DNA of 33,426 nucleotides from Clostridiales bacterium (GTDB taxonomy: Bacteria > Bacillota > Clostridia > Peptostreptococcales > NVVX01), in contig JAJOKP010000160.1 in NCBI GenBank assembly GCA_021129775.1, forward strand, positions 1 through 33,426, written 5' to 3'. The notes beneath the pieces were generated by a model, which ran no database searches, had not been told where the DNA came from, and was given only the letters and a program-made list of their open reading frames with translations. Every line of letters begins with the position of its first letter. Position 1 is the stretch's first letter. Of the stretch, positions 4,015 to 28,651 are shown piece by piece. Both the position numbers and the translations under genes were made by a program.

Positions 4015-5817
4015 CTAAAAAAACAATGCCCCTATACGAGAAAATATACCGCCGAGTAGAAAGGCTATGCCTGTTGTGAAAACGAACATTTTTACAGCCG
4101 TAGAAAGGTCGAATTCGCGTGCTACAATGGCTACTATAGCCACACAAGGCACGTAAAACAGTCCCACTATCGCTCCCACAAAAAGCTGTACTGTAGTAAG
4201 ATCCATTTCCAAAAGAGGCAATACTGTAAGCTCGCGACGAAAAAGTCCTAGAACTAAAGGAACGGCTACTTCTTCAGGAAGTTGCAACCATCCTACAACT
4301 AAAGGACTAAGCAATCTGCCTAAACCCGCCATAACACCGGTCTCGTATAAAACTGCTGCTAGACCGACAGCTGCTATCAAAGGTATTCCTCCTTGAAGAA
4401 TAAAATTCTTTATTCTTAGTCCAATCTTTTTAGCTAAAACAGTGATTTTAGGAAAAAGCAAATCTGGCACTTCCATCAAAACTGGTTGAAGTGTTCCTTT
4501 TAGAAAATAATCCAAAATAATGCCAGTTAAAATAAGAGCAAGCATAGAAACAAAAAAGACAGCCAACATAACAGGAATAGATCTTGCTGCTAACAAAGAT
4601 ATAAAGGCACCTGTTTGTGAAATGCAGGGGATAGTTAAGCAAATCATAGCAGTAATTATTTTTCGTTCTTTTAAAGAACTTAAAGTTCTTGTAGCCATAA
4701 TTGCAGGAATACCGCAACCATAACCTAGTAAAAGAGGAATAATACCCGAACCATGCACGCCGATTTTGTGTAACAGTCCATCTAAAAGACAGCCGAGTCG
4801 CGGTAAATACCCGCTATCCTCTAAAAGACTCAAGGCAATATAGAAAGAAATAACGTACGGTAATACCAAAGTAAAAGGCCATTCTATTCCCTTTACCAAA
4901 AATCCAAACTCTCCAATAAGAATGTTTTGAATTATACCAGAGGGGATTATGTTTTCCACAACAAATACTACTTGAGGAATAATTAAACCACGAAATAAAG
5001 GCAGTAGCACTGCCTGCCGCAAACCCATTCCCAAACCAACAATTATGCCAAAAGTAGTTGCTAGAATCAAGACAGCAAGTGGGAGACCAGGCCAAGGCAA
5101 CATTAACAAATCTCCTATTTTTTGTCTTTTAAGAGGAACGTCAAGAACCGTATGTTGTGTGACTTTTGCTATTAGTTTTTCTGTTTTTTCCCAACGACTT
5201 TCTTGACTGCCCCTTATAAGCGCCGAGTAATCCGATTTTTTTTTATTTGTGGTAACTTCTGCCAGGGTAGTTTTTAATTTTTCTATTCCTTTTCCAGTAA
5301 TTGCAACAGTCGGTTCGACAGCTATACCTAGTTCATGAGAAAGAAGTGTAACATCAATAACATATCCCTTTTCATGTGCTAAATCAGTACGGTTTAGAGC
5401 TACAAGCGTTGGTATTCCATGCTCCAAAATTTGCAAAAGAAAATACAGACCAGGTTCTAGATTGTTGGCATCTAGTACATATATAATTGCGTCTGGTTTT
5501 TGGGGTAGAACTTCTCCTGTCTCAGCAGAGGAATCACAATGACCCAATTTGCCTTTCTCGAAGGAAGATTTCCCCGACAACATTTCTATAGCTATTTTTT
5601 CAGCATCGTTTGTCGCGTCTAATGTATATGTTCCAGGCACATCTATTATTAAAAAATTATTATCTTTTATAGCTGTATTTCCTATTGTAAAATCTACTGT
5701 AGTTCCTGCATAGTTAGCTACACTTGCATTTAGTCCAGTAAGTTTGTTGAAAATTACGCTTTTACCGACATTGGGGGTGCCCATAAGTAAAACAGTGGCT
5801 TTATCTTGAAATTTCAA
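4015..5817 (-). CDS. feoB: Ferrous iron transport protein B (FeoB)
   Basis: N-terminal GTPase G1 motif GTPNVGKSVIFNKLTG, DVPGTYTL; C-terminal nucleoside-gate-like TM region with GYGCGIPAIMATRTL. Confidence 0.95.
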   Translation of the reverse strand: MKFQDKATVLLMGTPNVGKSVIFNKLTGLNASVANYAGTTVDFTIGNTAIKDNNFLIIDVPGTYTLDATNDAEKIAIEMLSGKSSFEKGKLGHCDSSAETGEVLPQKPDAIIYVLDANNLEPGLYFLLQILEHGIPTLVALNRTDLAHEKGYVIDVTLLSHELGIAVEPTVAITGKGIEKLKTTLAEVTTNKKKSDYSALIRGSQESRWEKTEKLIAKVTQHTVLDVPLKRQKIGDLLMLPWPGLPLAVLILATTFGIIVGLGMGLRQAVLLPLFRGLIIPQVVFVVENIIPSGIIQNILIGEFGFLVKGIEWPFTLVLPYVISFYIALSLLEDSGYLPRLGCLLDGLLHKIGVHGSGIIPLLLGYGCGIPAIMATRTLSSLKERKIITAMICLTIPCISQTGAFISLLAARSIPVMLAVFFVSMLALILTGIILDYFLKGTLQPVLMEVPDLLFPKITVLAKKIGLRIKNFILQGGIPLIAAVGLAAVLYETGVMAGLGRLLSPLVVGWLQLPEEVAVPLVLGLFRRELTVLPLLEMDLTTVQLFVGAIVGLFYVPCVAIVAIVAREFDLSTAVKMFVFTTGIAFLLGGIFSRIGALFF

Positions 5818-6005: not shown

Positions 6006-6362
6006 CTACTCCACAGCTAATTTTATTTGCTGTGCCAGAACACGCCCTATAGCGATGTTTCTGTCTTCAATCTTAATAATGATTGGTCCGCCAAAATATT
6101 GCCAGCCTAGTACTCGTATTTTTTTATTAAGTCTGAGACCAAGGGAAGACATAATAGACTGCTTAGGAACAAAAGTAATAGAAGCTTCATTTCCTTTTGT
6201 CATCTGCGCAAGAGTCAATTTTTCATTGTTAGTCTCATGGTTGTTTTTAGAAACTTTCTTAACCTGATTATATTTCCATTTATTAAACAAAACACCACTC
6301 CTTTTCAAAGTTTTTCCTTCAGTAATTGTTTTCCGACTAGTAAGCAGACAACATTTAGGCAC
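6006..6362 (-). CDS. feoA: FeoA domain protein
   Basis: C-terminal ~70 aa LTLAQMTKGNEASITFVPKQSIMSSLGLRLNKKIRVLGWQYFGGPIIIKIEDRNIAIGRVLAQQI is FeoA/SH3-like; upstream of feoB on the same strand; true start may be internal. Confidence 0.82.
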   Translation of the reverse strand: MPKCCLLTSRKTITEGKTLKRSGVLFNKWKYNQVKKVSKNNHETNNEKLTLAQMTKGNEASITFVPKQSIMSSLGLRLNKKIRVLGWQYFGGPIIIKIEDRNIAIGRVLAQQIKLAVE

Positions 6363-6470: not shown

Positions 6471-6566
6471 TGATAAGAATTATCACTTACGTCAACTTAA
6501 AATAATTATACTATAATTGAAAACTATAGTCAATATCAAAATTTATCGACATATCAAAATCTATTG
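6471..6566 (-). promoter_or_regulatory. feoA promoter module: Fur-like box, sigmaA promoter, upstream 18-bp-period direct repeats
   Basis: TGATAAGAATTATCA at 6471-6485; minus-strand TTGACT-N17-TATAAT (-10 at 6505-6510, -35 at 6528-6533); direct repeats atatcaaaatttatcg / atatcaaaatctattg at 6533-6548 and 6551-6566. Confidence 0.8.
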
Positions 6567-7070: not shown

Positions 7071-8291
7071 ATGAAAATTAAAAAAAGTTTGTTGCTGATG
7101 TTAAGTTTGATGTTGATTGTCTCTTTAACTGGTTGCGGAGAGGCACCTGTTGAAACGCAACAGGAACCTGCTGTAACACAACAGGAACCTGCTGTAACAC
7201 AACAGGAACAAGATGAGAAACAGGAAAAAGCACCAGAAATAGTAGAAACTTCACTTCTTGGGCAAGCACCAGGTTCAGTGAGAAAAGACTTTGAACATGC
7301 GGTTTTAAAGTTTTTCCCAGAAGAAACAGGACACAGGATTTCCCAAACATGGTTTCGTGGTTGCTTTGACAGTGCAGACGATTTTTGGGAAGGAGCAAAC
7401 AAGGGAGAATTAAATGCAAATGTAATTATGGCTTATGGTCGTACAGGTGAAGCGCCAGAAGGAACAGACATTTATGGTGCTTGGTATGTCAGCCGTCCTT
7501 TGTTGAAGTCAATGCCTAATCATATCACTCTAAGGCCGGAATTTGAGGTCTTAGTCGATCCTGAGGCACTTTGGCAAGTCCCATTCGTGGATACAATGCT
7601 AATTATATATAATCCAACGCTGATTGATCGTAAAGACGTACCTACAAGTTGGGCTGGATTAGCCGATTTTGATAAACAAATCGCTATACCTGCTTGGGGT
7701 TGTTTTGCTATGAGAACACTTACTTATCTGTATGAGATTGTAGGTGAGGATAAATTCACGCAAATTATGGAAAACGGTGGAGTGCCAGCATTAAAATTAT
7801 GCCGCGATGATTCGAGAGACGAGTTAGATAACCCACTAGCTGCTGGTTGCGCAGTTAAGGCAGTACTATCTACTGGAACAGATGAAATAAGACGAGGATT
7901 TGCAGGCAAAGATATTGCAGTTGGAATAGGATCGCTTCAAAGAGAAGAATTGAGGCTAGGATTAGAAGATGGAACATTAGGCGCCATTTGGCCAGAAGAA
8001 GGGGCAATGGCATTTCCTTATCTAATGGCAGTACGCAAAAACCCAAATGCAGCAGATTTGGCACTTTTCGATTTCTTGACTAAGGGTGAAACCATGCAAA
8101 AAATCGTTTTTGAGGGAGGATGGAGTTCTACACTTGTTGATGGACCAGTTCATCCCATTGTAGAAGAGAATAAATTTAACTATTATTTTGTATCTTTAGA
8201 AGAATTAAGAAATGAAACCACGCATCGACGCATTGAAGAAATTGTTGCAGAACACGGTTTGCATAAAAAAGGTTGCGTTTGCTGCCCTTAA
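7071..8291 (+). CDS. Extracellular solute-binding lipoprotein (ABC-type family 1-like, possible iron)
   Basis: Lipobox SLTGCG; repetitive TQQEPAV linker; SBP-like body (VDTMLIIYNPTLIDRKDVPTSWAGLAD, AIWPEEGAMAFPYLMAVRKNPNAADLALFDFLTKGETM); C-terminus GCVCCP; no permease or ATPase adjacent. Confidence 0.8.
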   Translation: MKIKKSLLLMLSLMLIVSLTGCGEAPVETQQEPAVTQQEPAVTQQEQDEKQEKAPEIVETSLLGQAPGSVRKDFEHAVLKFFPEETGHRISQTWFRGCFDSADDFWEGANKGELNANVIMAYGRTGEAPEGTDIYGAWYVSRPLLKSMPNHITLRPEFEVLVDPEALWQVPFVDTMLIIYNPTLIDRKDVPTSWAGLADFDKQIAIPAWGCFAMRTLTYLYEIVGEDKFTQIMENGGVPALKLCRDDSRDELDNPLAAGCAVKAVLSTGTDEIRRGFAGKDIAVGIGSLQREELRLGLEDGTLGAIWPEEGAMAFPYLMAVRKNPNAADLALFDFLTKGETMQKIVFEGGWSSTLVDGPVHPIVEENKFNYYFVSLEELRNETTHRRIEEIVAEHGLHKKGCVCCP

Positions 8292-8543: not shown

Positions 8544-9572
8544 TTAGGATTCGCATTTGATCAGTGCTGCTCTTGTTTTCAAAGTTAAATAAGTAGTTGC
8601 TCCGACAGACAAAAACAAGGGGAACCAAAAAGTTACCAATCTTGATAAAAGAGCTATAGATATTCCTTCTGCAAATGAAAGATCAAAGTGAGTAAACATA
8701 AAAGCCAAAGTTCCTTCATATGACCCTAGTCCGCCTGGCAAGAGGGGTATTATGCTGACCAAATAAGCAATATAAGTAGCGATAGACACCGAAATAACGT
8801 CTGTATTTAAGTTTAACATATAAACTACCATATAAATTTTTAAAGGATAGAGAACCCATATAAACAAAGAAAACATAATTAAACAACGACGTTCTCTAGC
8901 ACTAACGAGTTGCCTAGAGTAGTGGATTGAACCTCTTATAAAAGTCTGCGTTCTTTTGATTTTCTGTGTTATTAATGTAAGCAAGTCATTTTTTTTAGAG
9001 CCCTGTGTAGATAGATTTTTTTTTATTTTTGAAATGACTTTATCTTCACTTTGACAATCAATAGAGTGGTAGAACCTAACTGCAGTAATAACAAATACAC
9101 ACAAAATTGGTAAAATAAAATACAATTGCCAAGGCAACTGCATACTAAATATCGACCACAAAAGAATTAAAATACATAGCAGAGCAAAAGGTAATAGTGA
9201 AAAATATTTGTCTAATAACAATATCGCTGTTAATTGTTGGTAAGATAGAGAAGTATGTCGCTTAAAAAGAAAAGCTTTTACTGTTTCTCCGCCTAGTTTA
9301 CTCGACGGCGTTACACTTTCTACAAAACTACCTGCTAAAAAAATATTAAAAGTTTTCCAGAAACTAATTTTATTATAAAGTTTTCGGAGTAAGTAATGCC
9401 ATCTATAAGCGATCATCATTAAAGTAATTATCTGTAATAGAAACAAAGCTAGCAACCAATACAAATTGACTTTTAAGAAAGTTATTTTAATGTTTTCCCA
9501 GCCAGTTGCAAATACAATTGCTGCTATAACTAGAATACTTAATATCCATGCATAAACCTTCTTTTCAGACAC
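8544..9572 (-). CDS. UPF0104 / lysylphosphatidylglycerol-synthase-TM (flippase-like) membrane protein
   Basis: 342-aa polytopic protein with FLAGSFVESVTPSSKLGGETVKAFLFKRHTSLSYQQLTAILLLDKYFSLLPF and SIIPLLPGGLGSYEGTLAFMFTHF motifs. Confidence 0.85.
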   Translation of the reverse strand: MSEKKVYAWILSILVIAAIVFATGWENIKITFLKVNLYWLLALFLLQIITLMMIAYRWHYLLRKLYNKISFWKTFNIFLAGSFVESVTPSSKLGGETVKAFLFKRHTSLSYQQLTAILLLDKYFSLLPFALLCILILLWSIFSMQLPWQLYFILPILCVFVITAVRFYHSIDCQSEDKVISKIKKNLSTQGSKKNDLLTLITQKIKRTQTFIRGSIHYSRQLVSARERRCLIMFSLFIWVLYPLKIYMVVYMLNLNTDVISVSIATYIAYLVSIIPLLPGGLGSYEGTLAFMFTHFDLSFAEGISIALLSRLVTFWFPLFLSVGATTYLTLKTRAALIKCES

Positions 9573-9662
9573 TTTTACTCACCTTCCCTTGGAATAACAG
9601 AGTTCAAATCAGTTGCTGCTAAATATTCACAATAATTGTGAATATGTTTACAATTTATTAAA

Positions 9663-10223
9663 CTATTTTACGTACAATACAGAACTGTCGAAGGTTTTCA
9701 TATTTTGCTTTACCATTCCAGTAAAAGGATAATCTTTGGGCAAATGGTCGTAATGGTCTTTAAATTTTTTGCTTGGTTTCCGAAATACCAAGCGTCCTCC
9801 TTGTGTTGTTGCCTTAAGCAAGTTGTCCAAGAGAAGTTCCTTCGGCTCCGCCTGCAATGCTACTATTGCCACTGTAAAATTTAAAGGAATGCCTTTGGAA
9901 CCGTCAGCTATTATAAATTTGATTTGCTCCCTAAGACCTATTTTATTACAATAGCAGCGAGCTTGTTCTATAGCCTTTCTATCTTTATCAACAGCCCACA
10001 CTTTTGCTTTGGTCAATAAGGCTAAATAAATGGCGGTAAAAGGTACGGCTCCACATCCAATATTTAAAATCACATCATTATTAGTTATTTGTGCTAGTGT
10101 AATTTCTTTTTGCACCACTTGTTGGTAATATTGAGTATACAAATTAGCCCCAAATGGTATTTTACTTAATAATTTTTCTCCTCGTCGCGCCAGTAGTTGA
10201 ATTAAAATATCATCATCCCCCAT
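9663..10223 (-). CDS. Small class I SAM-dependent methyltransferase / nicotianamine-synthase-like protein (second of tandem pair)
   Basis: Rossmann motif DVILNIGCGAVPFTAIYLALLTKAKVWAVDKDRKAIEQA; paralogous to the upstream ORF; 11-nt overlap. Confidence 0.7.
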   Translation of the reverse strand: MGDDDILIQLLARRGEKLLSKIPFGANLYTQYYQQVVQKEITLAQITNNDVILNIGCGAVPFTAIYLALLTKAKVWAVDKDRKAIEQARCYCNKIGLREQIKFIIADGSKGIPLNFTVAIVALQAEPKELLLDNLLKATTQGGRLVFRKPSKKFKDHYDHLPKDYPFTGMVKQNMKTFDSSVLYVK

Positions 10224-10824
10224 CTTTTATCAACAAATAAGATGCCTTTAAGGTTAATCCGCAATGGAATACCTTCTTTTTAACATAAGATTTACATCCG
10301 CCGAGCGGCTCTATGTCGCCATAAATTGCAGAGAAAATTTTTTTGGCTTTCCGGTAAACTATTCTTGTACCAATCTGAGAAGTATCAAGCACATTTAATA
10401 ATACGGTTTTCTTAGGAGCGATACTTAGAGATATAATTACAACATCAAAGTCCGCTGCTGAAAATTTTGAACCGTCGGCTAAAACAATTTTGACTTTATC
10501 TTCGCAACCATATTTCCTTAACCATTTAAGCGCTGCGTGCATTACCTCATCATTAATTTCTAAGACTGTCACTTCGGCTCCCGTTAAAGAGGCGATTATT
10601 GTTGCTGTATATGGAATTCCACCACCGATATGTAAAACTTTTGACTTGCATTCTATTTTTGCCATATCAATTTCTTTTGAAACAAGATTTTGATATGCTT
10701 TTAAGTAAATTTTGCCAAGTAAAGTGTGTTGATAAAAAGAGTGTTTTTCAAGAAATTTGGTTTTTTCAAGAAACAATTGTCGTAAAAATGCAATTATTTT
10801 AGATGAGCAAAATGACTGTTGCAT
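10213..10824 (-). CDS. Small class I SAM-dependent methyltransferase / nicotianamine-synthase-like protein (first of tandem pair)
   Basis: KVLHIGGGIPYTATIIASLTGAEVTVLEINDEVMHAALKWLRKYG...DFDVVIISLSIAPKKTVLLNVLDTSQIGTRIVYRKAKKIFSAIYGDIEPL resembles NAS-type SAM-binding fold. Confidence 0.7.
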   Translation of the reverse strand: MQQSFCSSKIIAFLRQLFLEKTKFLEKHSFYQHTLLGKIYLKAYQNLVSKEIDMAKIECKSKVLHIGGGIPYTATIIASLTGAEVTVLEINDEVMHAALKWLRKYGCEDKVKIVLADGSKFSAADFDVVIISLSIAPKKTVLLNVLDTSQIGTRIVYRKAKKIFSAIYGDIEPLGGCKSYVKKKVFHCGLTLKASYLLIKDGG

Positions 10825-10879
10825 ATGGATAACCTCCTGTTTAGAAAATAGATGTTATAACTCTTTTGCTTACTTTTTC

Positions 10880-10975
10880 TGATAGCAATTATCATCAGTA
10901 TTTAATCAAGCTGATTATATTACAACTGAAAACTGTTGTCAATACAAAAAGTTATTGACATGCAAAAAGTTATTG
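10880..10975 (-). promoter_or_regulatory. Promoter module of the NAS-like operon: Fur-like box, sigmaA promoter, upstream 18-bp-period direct repeats
   Basis: TGATAGCAATTATCA at 10880-10894; minus-strand TTGACA-N17-TATAAT (-10 at 10914-10919, -35 at 10937-10942); direct repeats caaaaagttattg at 10945-10957 and 10963-10975. Confidence 0.8.
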
Positions 10976-11073: not shown

Positions 11074-12415
11074 CAGTGATATTGTATTTCCGCTACTAAT
11101 GCAAAACAATAAATCATTAAAAACTCATAACAACTGTTGTCATTAGAGCTTTAATAAGATATAGTTATATATGAAAGTAATGGTTAAATAGAAAATATCA
11201 CGAACAAATTGGAGGAACACTAAATGAGCAATGTGCATGAATTAAAATTCTTAAAAGAGAAAATTGAGCAACTTAAAGGAGATGGTGTCTATAGACAACT
11301 ACCAGTTTTAGAAGGAGCAAATGAAGCAGAAATTATTCTAAACGGTAAGAAAGTAATAAACTTATCTTCAAATAATTACTTAGGCTTTGCAAATCATCCT
11401 AAGCTTAAATAAGCAGGAATTGAAGCTATAGAAAAATACGGTGTAGGTTCTGGCGCAGTTAGAACAATAGTTGGAAACATGGATATTCACGAAGAACTAG
11501 AAAAAGTATTAGCTAAGTTCAAAAGAGAAGAAGCGGTAATGGTATACCAATCAGGATTTAACTGTAATGCAGGAACAATTCAAGCAATTACAGAAAAAGG
11601 CGACTTAATAATATCAGACGAATTAAATCATGCAAGCATAATAGATGGAGTAAGACTAAGTAAAGCTGACAGAGCAGTGTATAAACACTGTGATATGGTG
11701 CATTTAGAAGAAATTTTAAAAGAAAGAAGAGACAACTACAATACAGTTTTAATTATCACTGACGGAGTATTTAGTATGGACGGAGACATTGCACCACTTC
11801 TAGAGATTGTAGAACTAGCAGAAAAATACAGTACATTGACTTATGTAGATGACGCACACGGTTCAGGAGTTCTAGGTGAAAGTGGTAGGGGAACAGTAGA
11901 CCACTTTGGACTACACGGAAGAGTAGACTTTTGCATAGGAACACTATCTAAAGCAATAGGAGTTGTAGGTGTTACGTAGCGGGGAGCAACACAATGAAAG
12001 AATGGTTAAGCCATAGAGGAAGACCAATTCTATTTAGCACATCATTACCACCAGCATCAGTTGCGTCAATTACTGCAGCAGTTAAGCTACTAATGAGTTC
12101 AACTGAATACACTGACAAGCTTTGGGACAACGCAAAATACTTTAAAGATAAAATGAGCAAATTAGGATACGACATAGGAAAAAGCGAAACACCAATAACT
12201 CCAATAATGATAGGCGAAGAAGCCAAGACAATGAACTTCAGTAAAAAGCTACTAGAAAACGGAGTATTCGCATCAGGAATAGTATTCCTCACAGTTATAA
12301 AAGGAACAGGCAGAGTAAGATGTATGGTAACAGCAGGACATACAAAGGAGCAATTAGACAGAGCAGTAGAGATATTTAAAAGTGTTGGGGAAGAGATGGG
12401 TTTGTTGACTTTGTA
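11074..12415 (+). repeat. Direct segmental duplication, left copy (permease 3' tail + kbl promoter + kbl)
   Basis: cagtgatattgtatttccgct... through the end of kbl aligns closely to 23838..25177. Confidence 0.9.
11137..11165 (+). promoter_or_regulatory. Predicted sigmaA promoter of left kbl copy
   Basis: TTGTCA-N17-TATAGT; identical layout at 23901-23929 before the intact copy. Confidence 0.5.
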
Positions 12416-12416
12416 A
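11224..12416 (+). pseudogene. Decayed glycine C-acetyltransferase / AONS-family gene (kbl-like)
   Basis: Homologous to intact 23990..25177; in-frame TAA near 11410 (aaaTAAgca versus aaaCAAgca) and 1-nt loss near 11970 (gtaggtgttacg versus gtaggtggatacg). Confidence 0.92.
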
Positions 12417-23080: not shown

Positions 23081-23109
23081 TTGACATGATAACAACTATC
23101 AATTAGATT
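23081..23109 (+). promoter_or_regulatory. Predicted promoter with Fur-like box in the -35/-10 spacer
   Basis: TTGACA (23081-23086), TGATAACAACTATCA (23087-23101), weak -10 TAGATT (23104-23109). Confidence 0.6.
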
Positions 23110-23910: not shown

Positions 23911-25177
23911 AGCATTAATAAGATATAGTTATACATGAATGTAGCGGACAAATAGTCAAATATCACTAACGAATTGGAGGAATAAACAAATGAGCAATGT
24001 ACATGAATTAAAATTCTTAAAAGAGAAAATTGAACAACTAAAAGAAGATGGTGTTTATAGACAGTTACCAGTTTTAGAAGGAGCAAATGAGGCAGAAATT
24101 ATGCTTAACGGTAAGAAAGTAATCAATTTATCGTCAAACAATTACTTAGGTTTTGCAAATCATCCAAAATTAAAACAAGCAGGCATTGAAGCTATAGAAA
24201 AATATGGTGTAGGTTCTGGCGCAGTTAGAACAATAGTTGGAAACATGGATATTCATGAAGAACTAGAAGTTGTATTAGCGGAGTTTAAAAGAGAAGAAGC
24301 AGTCATGGTGTACCAATCAGGTTTTAACTGTAATGCAGGAACCATACAAGCAATTACAGAAAAAGGTGACTTAATAATATCAGATGAACTAAATCACGCA
24401 AGCATAATAGATGGAGTAAGACTAAGTAAAGCAGATAGAGCAGTATACAAACATTGTGATATGGCACATTTAGAAGAAATTTTAAAAGAAAAACGAGACA
24501 ATTACAATACTGTCCTAATTATTACAGATGGGGTATTTAGTATGGATGGAGACATTGCACCATTACCAGAGATAGTAGAACTAGCTGAAAAATACAATGC
24601 ACTGACGTACGTAGATGATGCACACGGATCTGGAGTATTAGGTGAAAGTGGAAGAGGAACAGTAGATCACTTCGGACTACACGGAAGAGTAGACTTTTGC
24701 ATAGGCACACTATCAAAAGCAATTGGAGTCGTAGGTGGATACGTAGCAGGAAGTAACACAATGAAAGAATGGTTAAGTCATAGAGGAAGACCAATTTTAT
24801 TTAGCACATCATTACCGCCAGCAGCAATAGGAGCAATCACTGCTGCGGTTAAACTAATAATGAGTTCAACAGAATATACAGATAAACTTTGGGACAACGC
24901 AAAATACTTTAAAGATAAAATGAGCAAATTAGGATACGACATAGGAAAAAGCGAAACACCAATAACTCCAATAATGATAGGCGAAGAAGCCAAGACAATG
25001 AAATTCAGTAAAACACTATTAGAAAACGGAGTATTTGCATCAGGCATAGTATTCCCTACAGTTGGTAAAGGAACAGGTAGAGTAAGATGCATGGTAACAG
25101 CAGGACACACAAAAGAGCAACTAGACAGAGCAGTAGAGATATTTGAAAGTGTTGGGAAAGAGATGGGCTTGATATAA
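23838..25177 (+). repeat. Direct segmental duplication, right copy
   Basis: Aligns to 11074..12415, including permease 3' tail, promoter and kbl. Confidence 0.9.
23990..25177 (+). CDS. kbl: Glycine C-acetyltransferase / 8-amino-7-oxononanoate synthase family (kbl-like), intact
   Basis: [51 protein letters not shown] region [45 protein letters not shown]. Confidence 0.88.
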
Positions 25178-28320: not shown

Positions 28321-28419
28321 AGTAGGAGAACAGCTTGTCAATCTACATAGTGGTAGATAAACTATCTTGACAAACACCTCTATTGACCAACCAAACAAAA
28401 TAAACTAAAATAGATATAA

Positions 28420-28651
28420 CAACAGTAGGTGTATTTAAATACTTAATAGGGAATTGAGCAAAAATCTCAAGCTGCCCCAGCAACCGTAATGCTGATGAAA
28501 ATCACGAACCACTGCTTTTAGCGGGAAGGGTGATTAGTAAAATGAAGCTAAGCCGGTAGACCTGCCACTGTTAGCGTAGTATCTCCTGGGAGTGAGAACA
28601 AACTATCGGTATAGTGCTGACTAGTTCATTCCTTTGGGATGGACTTTTTTT
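28420..28651 (+). promoter_or_regulatory. Cobalamin riboswitch with terminator expression platform
   Basis: taatagggaa...agctgccccagcaaccgtaatgctgatgaaaatcacgaaccactg...gggaaggg...aagccggtagacctgcc core; terminator gttcattcc-ttt-gggatggac-ttttttt (28624-28651). Confidence 0.92.

Follow-up and report, generated by a model that had tools for sequence, protein, structure and literature searches.

FeoB is the main bacterial importer of Fe(II), and the delivery of Fe(II) to it is poorly understood. Other described systems that resemble the locus presented here include the archaeal nicotianamine synthase (NAS) MtNAS (PDB 3FPE), CntL of the staphylopine and pseudopaline clusters, and MprF, in which a flippase domain is joined to a lysyl-PG synthase domain that depends on aminoacyl-tRNA. 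In plants, nicotianamine serves as an intracellular iron buffer and chaperone, and PF03706 proteins are lipid flippase or lipid transport domains. Opine zincophore clusters have been mapped with CntM as a handle (PMC7438024); because of that handle, such a mapping would miss a NAS gene linked to Feo.

We analysed a window of 33,426 nucleotides from a Clostridiales bacterium, in which an earlier note had proposed an undescribed iron-responsive operon of two tandem NAS-like proteins and a UPF0104 membrane protein. The main point it overlooked is that the gene pair is part of a FeoA/FeoB module widespread in Bacillota. The locus shares FeoA, FeoB and upstream Fur-like boxes with the FeoABC ferrous iron uptake system and differs from it by a partner pair, NAS-like and LPG_synthase_TM (LPG_TM). 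We found no description of this Feo-linked pair in the open-access collection searched, which covers few subscription papers, so that its novelty is provisional. The genes and sites of the locus are as follows:

10914..10942, minus strand: sigma-A-type promoter TTGACA-17-TATAAT, 12/12 consensus matches
10880..10894, upstream of ORF1: Fur-like box TGATAGCAATTATCA, 2 mismatches to TGATAATNATTATCA
10213..10824, minus strand: NAS-like protein 1 (ORF1), 203 aa, ATG start, divergent paralogue
9663..10223, minus strand: NAS-like protein 2 (ORF2), 186 aa, ATG start, clade NAS-a
9625..9643, gap between the NAS 2 and LPG_TM genes: near-perfect palindrome ATTCACAATTATTGTGAAT
8544..9572, minus strand: LPG_synthase_TM / UPF0104 flippase-like membrane protein, 342 aa, GTG start
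7071-8291, opposite strand, between the NAS/LPG_TM genes and feoAB: ABC solute-binding lipoprotein, SBP_bac_6
6471..6485, upstream of feoA: Fur-like box TGATAAGAATTATCA
6006..6362, minus strand: FeoA, 118 aa as called (PF04023, 4e-11)
4015..5817, minus strand: FeoB of a cassette-associated subfamily, 600 aa (PF02421, 1.5e-43)

The ORF coordinates bore out the three-gene run on the minus strand, in which ORF1 and ORF2 overlap by 11 nt; the two proteins are 35% identical over 133 aa. The feoA and feoB genes lie about 2.2 kb beyond the NAS and LPG_TM genes, on the same strand and with their own Fur-like box. The window FeoB scored 890 bits against a profile of cassette FeoB proteins (A4), one row of which is this FeoB itself. 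The strong sigmaA promoter reported before was recovered upstream of ORF1, the runner-up sites in the region reaching 10/12 matches. Inspection of the window ORFs revealed no CntM-like opine dehydrogenase, in keeping with the earlier view that this is not a staphylopine-type cluster.

Relationship of the small proteins to NAS and CntL

Single-sequence Pfam searches were ambiguous, returning PCMT and generic methyltransferases (both favoured for ORF1) and NAS below cut-off. The window ORFs scored 14.9 and 24.1 bits with PF03059 (gathering threshold 27.1), a cut-off passed by the relatives L136, L138, L139 and L153, and 18.6 (ORF1) and 33.4 bits (ORF2) with the CntL equivalog model NF033601, far under its cut-off of 350 bits. 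By phmmer against the PDB, the best match was MtNAS for ORF1 (4.8e-10) and CntL for ORF2 (2.6e-6). A family profile built from 18 relatives matched MtNAS and CntL at 5e-20 to 3e-17, and the next PDB match stood at 1.7e-6. Superfamily membership of the window ORFs is thus based on this family profile and not on the PF03059 cut-off. All 21 members of alignment A3 matched NF033601 at 1e-3 or better, and 18/21 matched PF03059.

AlphaFold2 models gave a similar picture. The ORF1 model (pLDDT 87) had MtNAS entries as its four top Foldseek matches (best 1.1e-12), and MtNAS was also the top match of the ORF2 model (pLDDT 86; 2.4e-11); for both models, aKMT and other Rossmann methyltransferases came close after. 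Judged from profiles and predicted structures, ORF1 and ORF2 are members of the NAS/CntL superfamily. The relationship put forward in the earlier note was accordingly supported by the family profile, by Foldseek and by the NCBIfam and Pfam models, and the outcome that it had named as refuting, placement of both ORFs in an unrelated methyltransferase family, did not appear.

With MtNAS the window proteins share the Rossmann NAS core and the position of Tyr107, the catalytic tyrosine of that enzyme (PMC10491745). In the profile alignment, the family tyrosine (Y33 of ORF2, Y44 of ORF1) falls at Y107; 97 rows of the family alignment carry Tyr there, and the 3 remaining rows are a probable generic methyltransferase and a pair of proteins of CntL length. 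E26, Y44 and E51 of ORF1 are invariant in A3. The counterpart of the catalytic Glu81 is less clear, since the sequence register favours alignment of the invariant glutamate (E16/E26 in the window proteins) to E83 of MtNAS. At 186-203 aa, the window proteins are also short of most of the helical domain found at the N-terminus of MtNAS and CntL, and its loss could make space for a bulkier acceptor. Unlike MtNAS, they accompany feoAB and a flippase-like gene, and unlike in CntL clusters, Feo replaces Cnt transport.

The membrane protein described earlier as UPF0104 proved to be an LPG_synthase_TM protein (PF03706, E=3.3e-49, 168 bits for a gathering threshold of 33.4; TIGR00374, 2e-43). It scored only 40.9 bits with the MprF model, whose cut-off is 600, and PF03706 was the sole Pfam match along its 342 aa, the C-terminal lysyl-PG synthase domain being absent.

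Linkage with feoAB and Fur-like boxes

Surveys of 297 order-level and 399 phylum-level genomes, followed by examination of gene neighbourhoods, gave 73 short-NAS loci. In these Bacillota, feoB lay within 5 kb of the NAS gene at 66/73 loci and an LPG_TM gene within 300 bp at 65/73, so that the co-occurrence check suggested earlier gave conserved linkage in relatives. Same-order relatives nearly always carry feoA-feoB-NAS-LPG_TM. The cassettes, made up of feoA, feoB, NAS and LPG_TM genes, occur in at least three gene orders: FeoA-FeoB-NAS-LPG in 64 of the 98 listed loci (some genomes being found twice), FeoA-NAS-LPG-FeoB in 7, including L134 with an extra LPG gene, and NAS-LPG-FeoA-FeoB in 4; two-NAS forms also occur. 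Survival of the linkage through this reordering argues for a joint function.

The association extends to the type of FeoB. In the order sample, the cassette FeoB subfamily was present in 26/294 genomes and strong NAS matches (E of 1e-41 or better) in 26/297, and these are exactly the same 26 genomes (Fisher value 8e-38, a simple value that ignores shared ancestry). Agreement in the phylum sample was close and incomplete, one genome (G398) having this FeoB type without a nearby NAS.

Fur-like sites were scored as 7-1-7 boxes with at most 2 mismatches to TGATAATNATTATCA. Such a site was found upstream of 37/76 cassettes. The rate was 0.8% in first-order Markov resamples and 1.7% in the 421 regions (310-bp windows) before other genes of the same surveyed loci. 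The box seen in the earlier note is present and of a type enriched upstream of cassettes, and the iron-responsive operon, as a prediction, is supported by conserved boxes together with the feoAB linkage. In the 2.2-Mb assembly, TGATAGCAATTATCA is the sole exact copy. An iron-dependent-repressor gene adjoins the cassette of G400. We also considered the palindrome ATTCACAATTATTGTGAAT as a repeated regulatory site and rejected it, finding a single exact copy in the assembly.

Several loci depart from the common form. In the one-contig genome G603 (L136, 8850-10565), LPG_TM and NAS are fused into a protein of 571 aa whose NAS domain passes the PF03059 cut-off; in its relative G694, a separate ORF encodes the second NAS copy. 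Two NAS copies are found in the window, G638 (L139), G603, G694, G697, G400, G320 and G562, and two-NAS versions recur across several lineages (L136, L139, L158, L159, L172 and the relatives of G603). The flippase-like protein is not universal, since in G320 and G400, where two NAS genes accompany feoAB, the window LPG_TM had no match. A CDP-alcohol phosphatidyltransferase gene lies within the cassette operon of G014 (L042), and the short NAS copy of G560 (L128) has as neighbours a metal ABC system of the ZnuA type and a membrane protein with a VTT domain. In G382 (L153), a short NAS occurs with an EamA exporter, an Opp-type ABC importer and a methyltransferase, and no CntM gene was seen nearby; this is possibly a soluble-metallophore cluster.

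A tree splits the NAS copies into two groups, NAS-a and NAS-b. ORF2 belongs to NAS-a and is 50-53% identical to the NAS-a proteins of G603, G694 and G697. Placement of ORF1 in NAS-b had a tree support of just 0.41 and its profile scores prefer other groups, and we therefore kept it unplaced. The heteromeric pair supposed in the earlier note is thus partly supported by the recurrence of two-NAS systems and by the two clades, ORF1 being left unplaced. As the cassette of G001 and G002, from the window's own genus, belongs to a different clade, the window cassette may have been acquired from elsewhere.

A candidate ligand route to FeoB

In the model that we prefer, the cassette would be a Fur-regulated accessory module serving FeoA/FeoB as a dedicated importer of ferrous iron. 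The NAS-like enzyme or enzymes of the short type would use bound SAM as donor of a 3-amino-3-carboxypropyl (aminobutyrate) group, with an amine as acceptor; this chemistry is predicted from the enzyme family, and the product would be an aminocarboxylate metal ligand. The likeliest acceptor would be a membrane lipid head group. LPG_TM would carry the product to the outward side of the membrane, where it would bind Fe(II) and pass it to FeoB. The layout would resemble that of MprF, a flippase plus a transferase, with the NAS domain replacing the aminoacyl-tRNA-dependent one. Both systems combine a PF03706 flippase-like domain and a cytosolic transferase, fused here in one genome (L136); they differ in that the transferase is NAS-like and SAM-dependent by prediction, that two separate genes are usual and that the lipid substrate is hypothetical. 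We hold this model tentatively, at somewhat less than an even chance as a whole. Its more specific form, in which a membrane lipid with aminobutyrate units added by NAS to its head group is flipped by LPG_TM and is an anchored metallophore capturing Fe(II) for a specialised FeoB, as an adaptation of many anaerobes and alkaliphiles, we consider doubtful. The lipid acceptor is favoured by the near-constant LPG_TM partner, the MprF-like fusion, and the L042 phosphatidyltransferase and L128 VTT protein, the last two pointing only weakly to lipids. Against the model stand the lack of a clear counterpart of MtNAS Glu81 in the alignment, the lack of an LPG_TM match in G320 and G400, the EamA/Opp context of G382 and the FeoB of G398 without NAS.

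Some of these observations lead to other readings. The L153 context and the two genomes without LPG_TM favour a soluble ligand: a nicotianamine-like metallophore that NAS would make from SAM and one or more free amino acids, that LPG_TM or another exporter would release and that would keep Fe(II) soluble for FeoB. The characterised products of NAS and CntL are indeed soluble ligands (PMC10491745). The ZnuA-type ABC system next to NAS in G560 would fit as well, and in two-NAS systems a pair of aminobutyrate units could be attached one after the other. However, the membrane partner is of a lipid flippase or transport family and one such domain is fused to NAS, no metal-ligand importer recurs in the cassette, and FeoB is understood as a carrier of free Fe(II), so that we rate this reading as unlikely. 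The same two genomes would also suit a product that stays in the cytoplasm as a buffer or chaperone of the Fe(II) imported by FeoB, and thermonicotianamine accompanies the archaeal enzyme through purification (PMC10491745); adjacency of LPG_TM and NAS at 65/73 loci, and their fusion, speak against it, and we rate it as very unlikely.

A different doubt concerns the enzyme itself, which might be an ordinary SAM methyltransferase acting on a lipid or on FeoB, with NAS resemblance only. The Pfam preference of ORF1 for PCMT and generic methyltransferases and the Foldseek proximity of aKMT and others would agree with it. The family profile, in contrast, puts NAS/CntL more than 10 orders of magnitude ahead of all methyltransferases, and a tyrosine is invariant at the Y107 position; the profile gap weakened this reading, which appears quite unlikely.

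A conserved NAS enzyme linked to Feo would carry nicotianamine-type chemistry past opine metallophores, to ferrous iron and perhaps also to lipids. Proteins labelled methyltransferase or UPF0104 by generic models also gain leads to their function.

Carriers of the cassette and other features of the window

A profile scan of named genomes, seeded by alignment A2, gave 21 loci (L175-L195), 12 of which, judged by their names, come from alkaliphiles or soda-lake samples; after removal of the five loci matching A2 seed genomes, the count was 9/16. The 12 include Natroniella, Natronincola, Heliorestis, Evansella, Natronobacillus and the CSSed/T1Sed MAGs (dataset names from PMC6146748). Because the seeds were biased towards Alkaliphilus-like genomes and the scan had no control, the link to alkaline habitats is suggestive only. 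The retention of the cassette, often behind a Fur-like box, by many anaerobic and alkaline-habitat Bacillota points to an undescribed route to a ligand that would help to feed iron to FeoB. Among its carriers, Alkaliphilus transvaalensis and Natronincola peptidivorans are cultured, which opens the cassette to direct metabolomic and lipidomic study.

A plasmid- or virus-borne origin was considered for the window and set aside: one weak plasmid match (Prauserella, 26% identity) and zero viral matches were obtained. A broken second copy of the 2-amino-3-ketobutyrate CoA ligase gene (ORFs 11479-11979 and 11994-12416) adjoins the cassette. The intact copy (kbl) lies at 23990-25177, and a Fur-like box, TGATAACAACTATCA, is found at 23087-23101 in the stretch preceding it. 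Finally, a cobalamin riboswitch (RF00174, 86 bits) at 28409-28583 is located upstream of a cobQ-like gene and more cobalamin genes.
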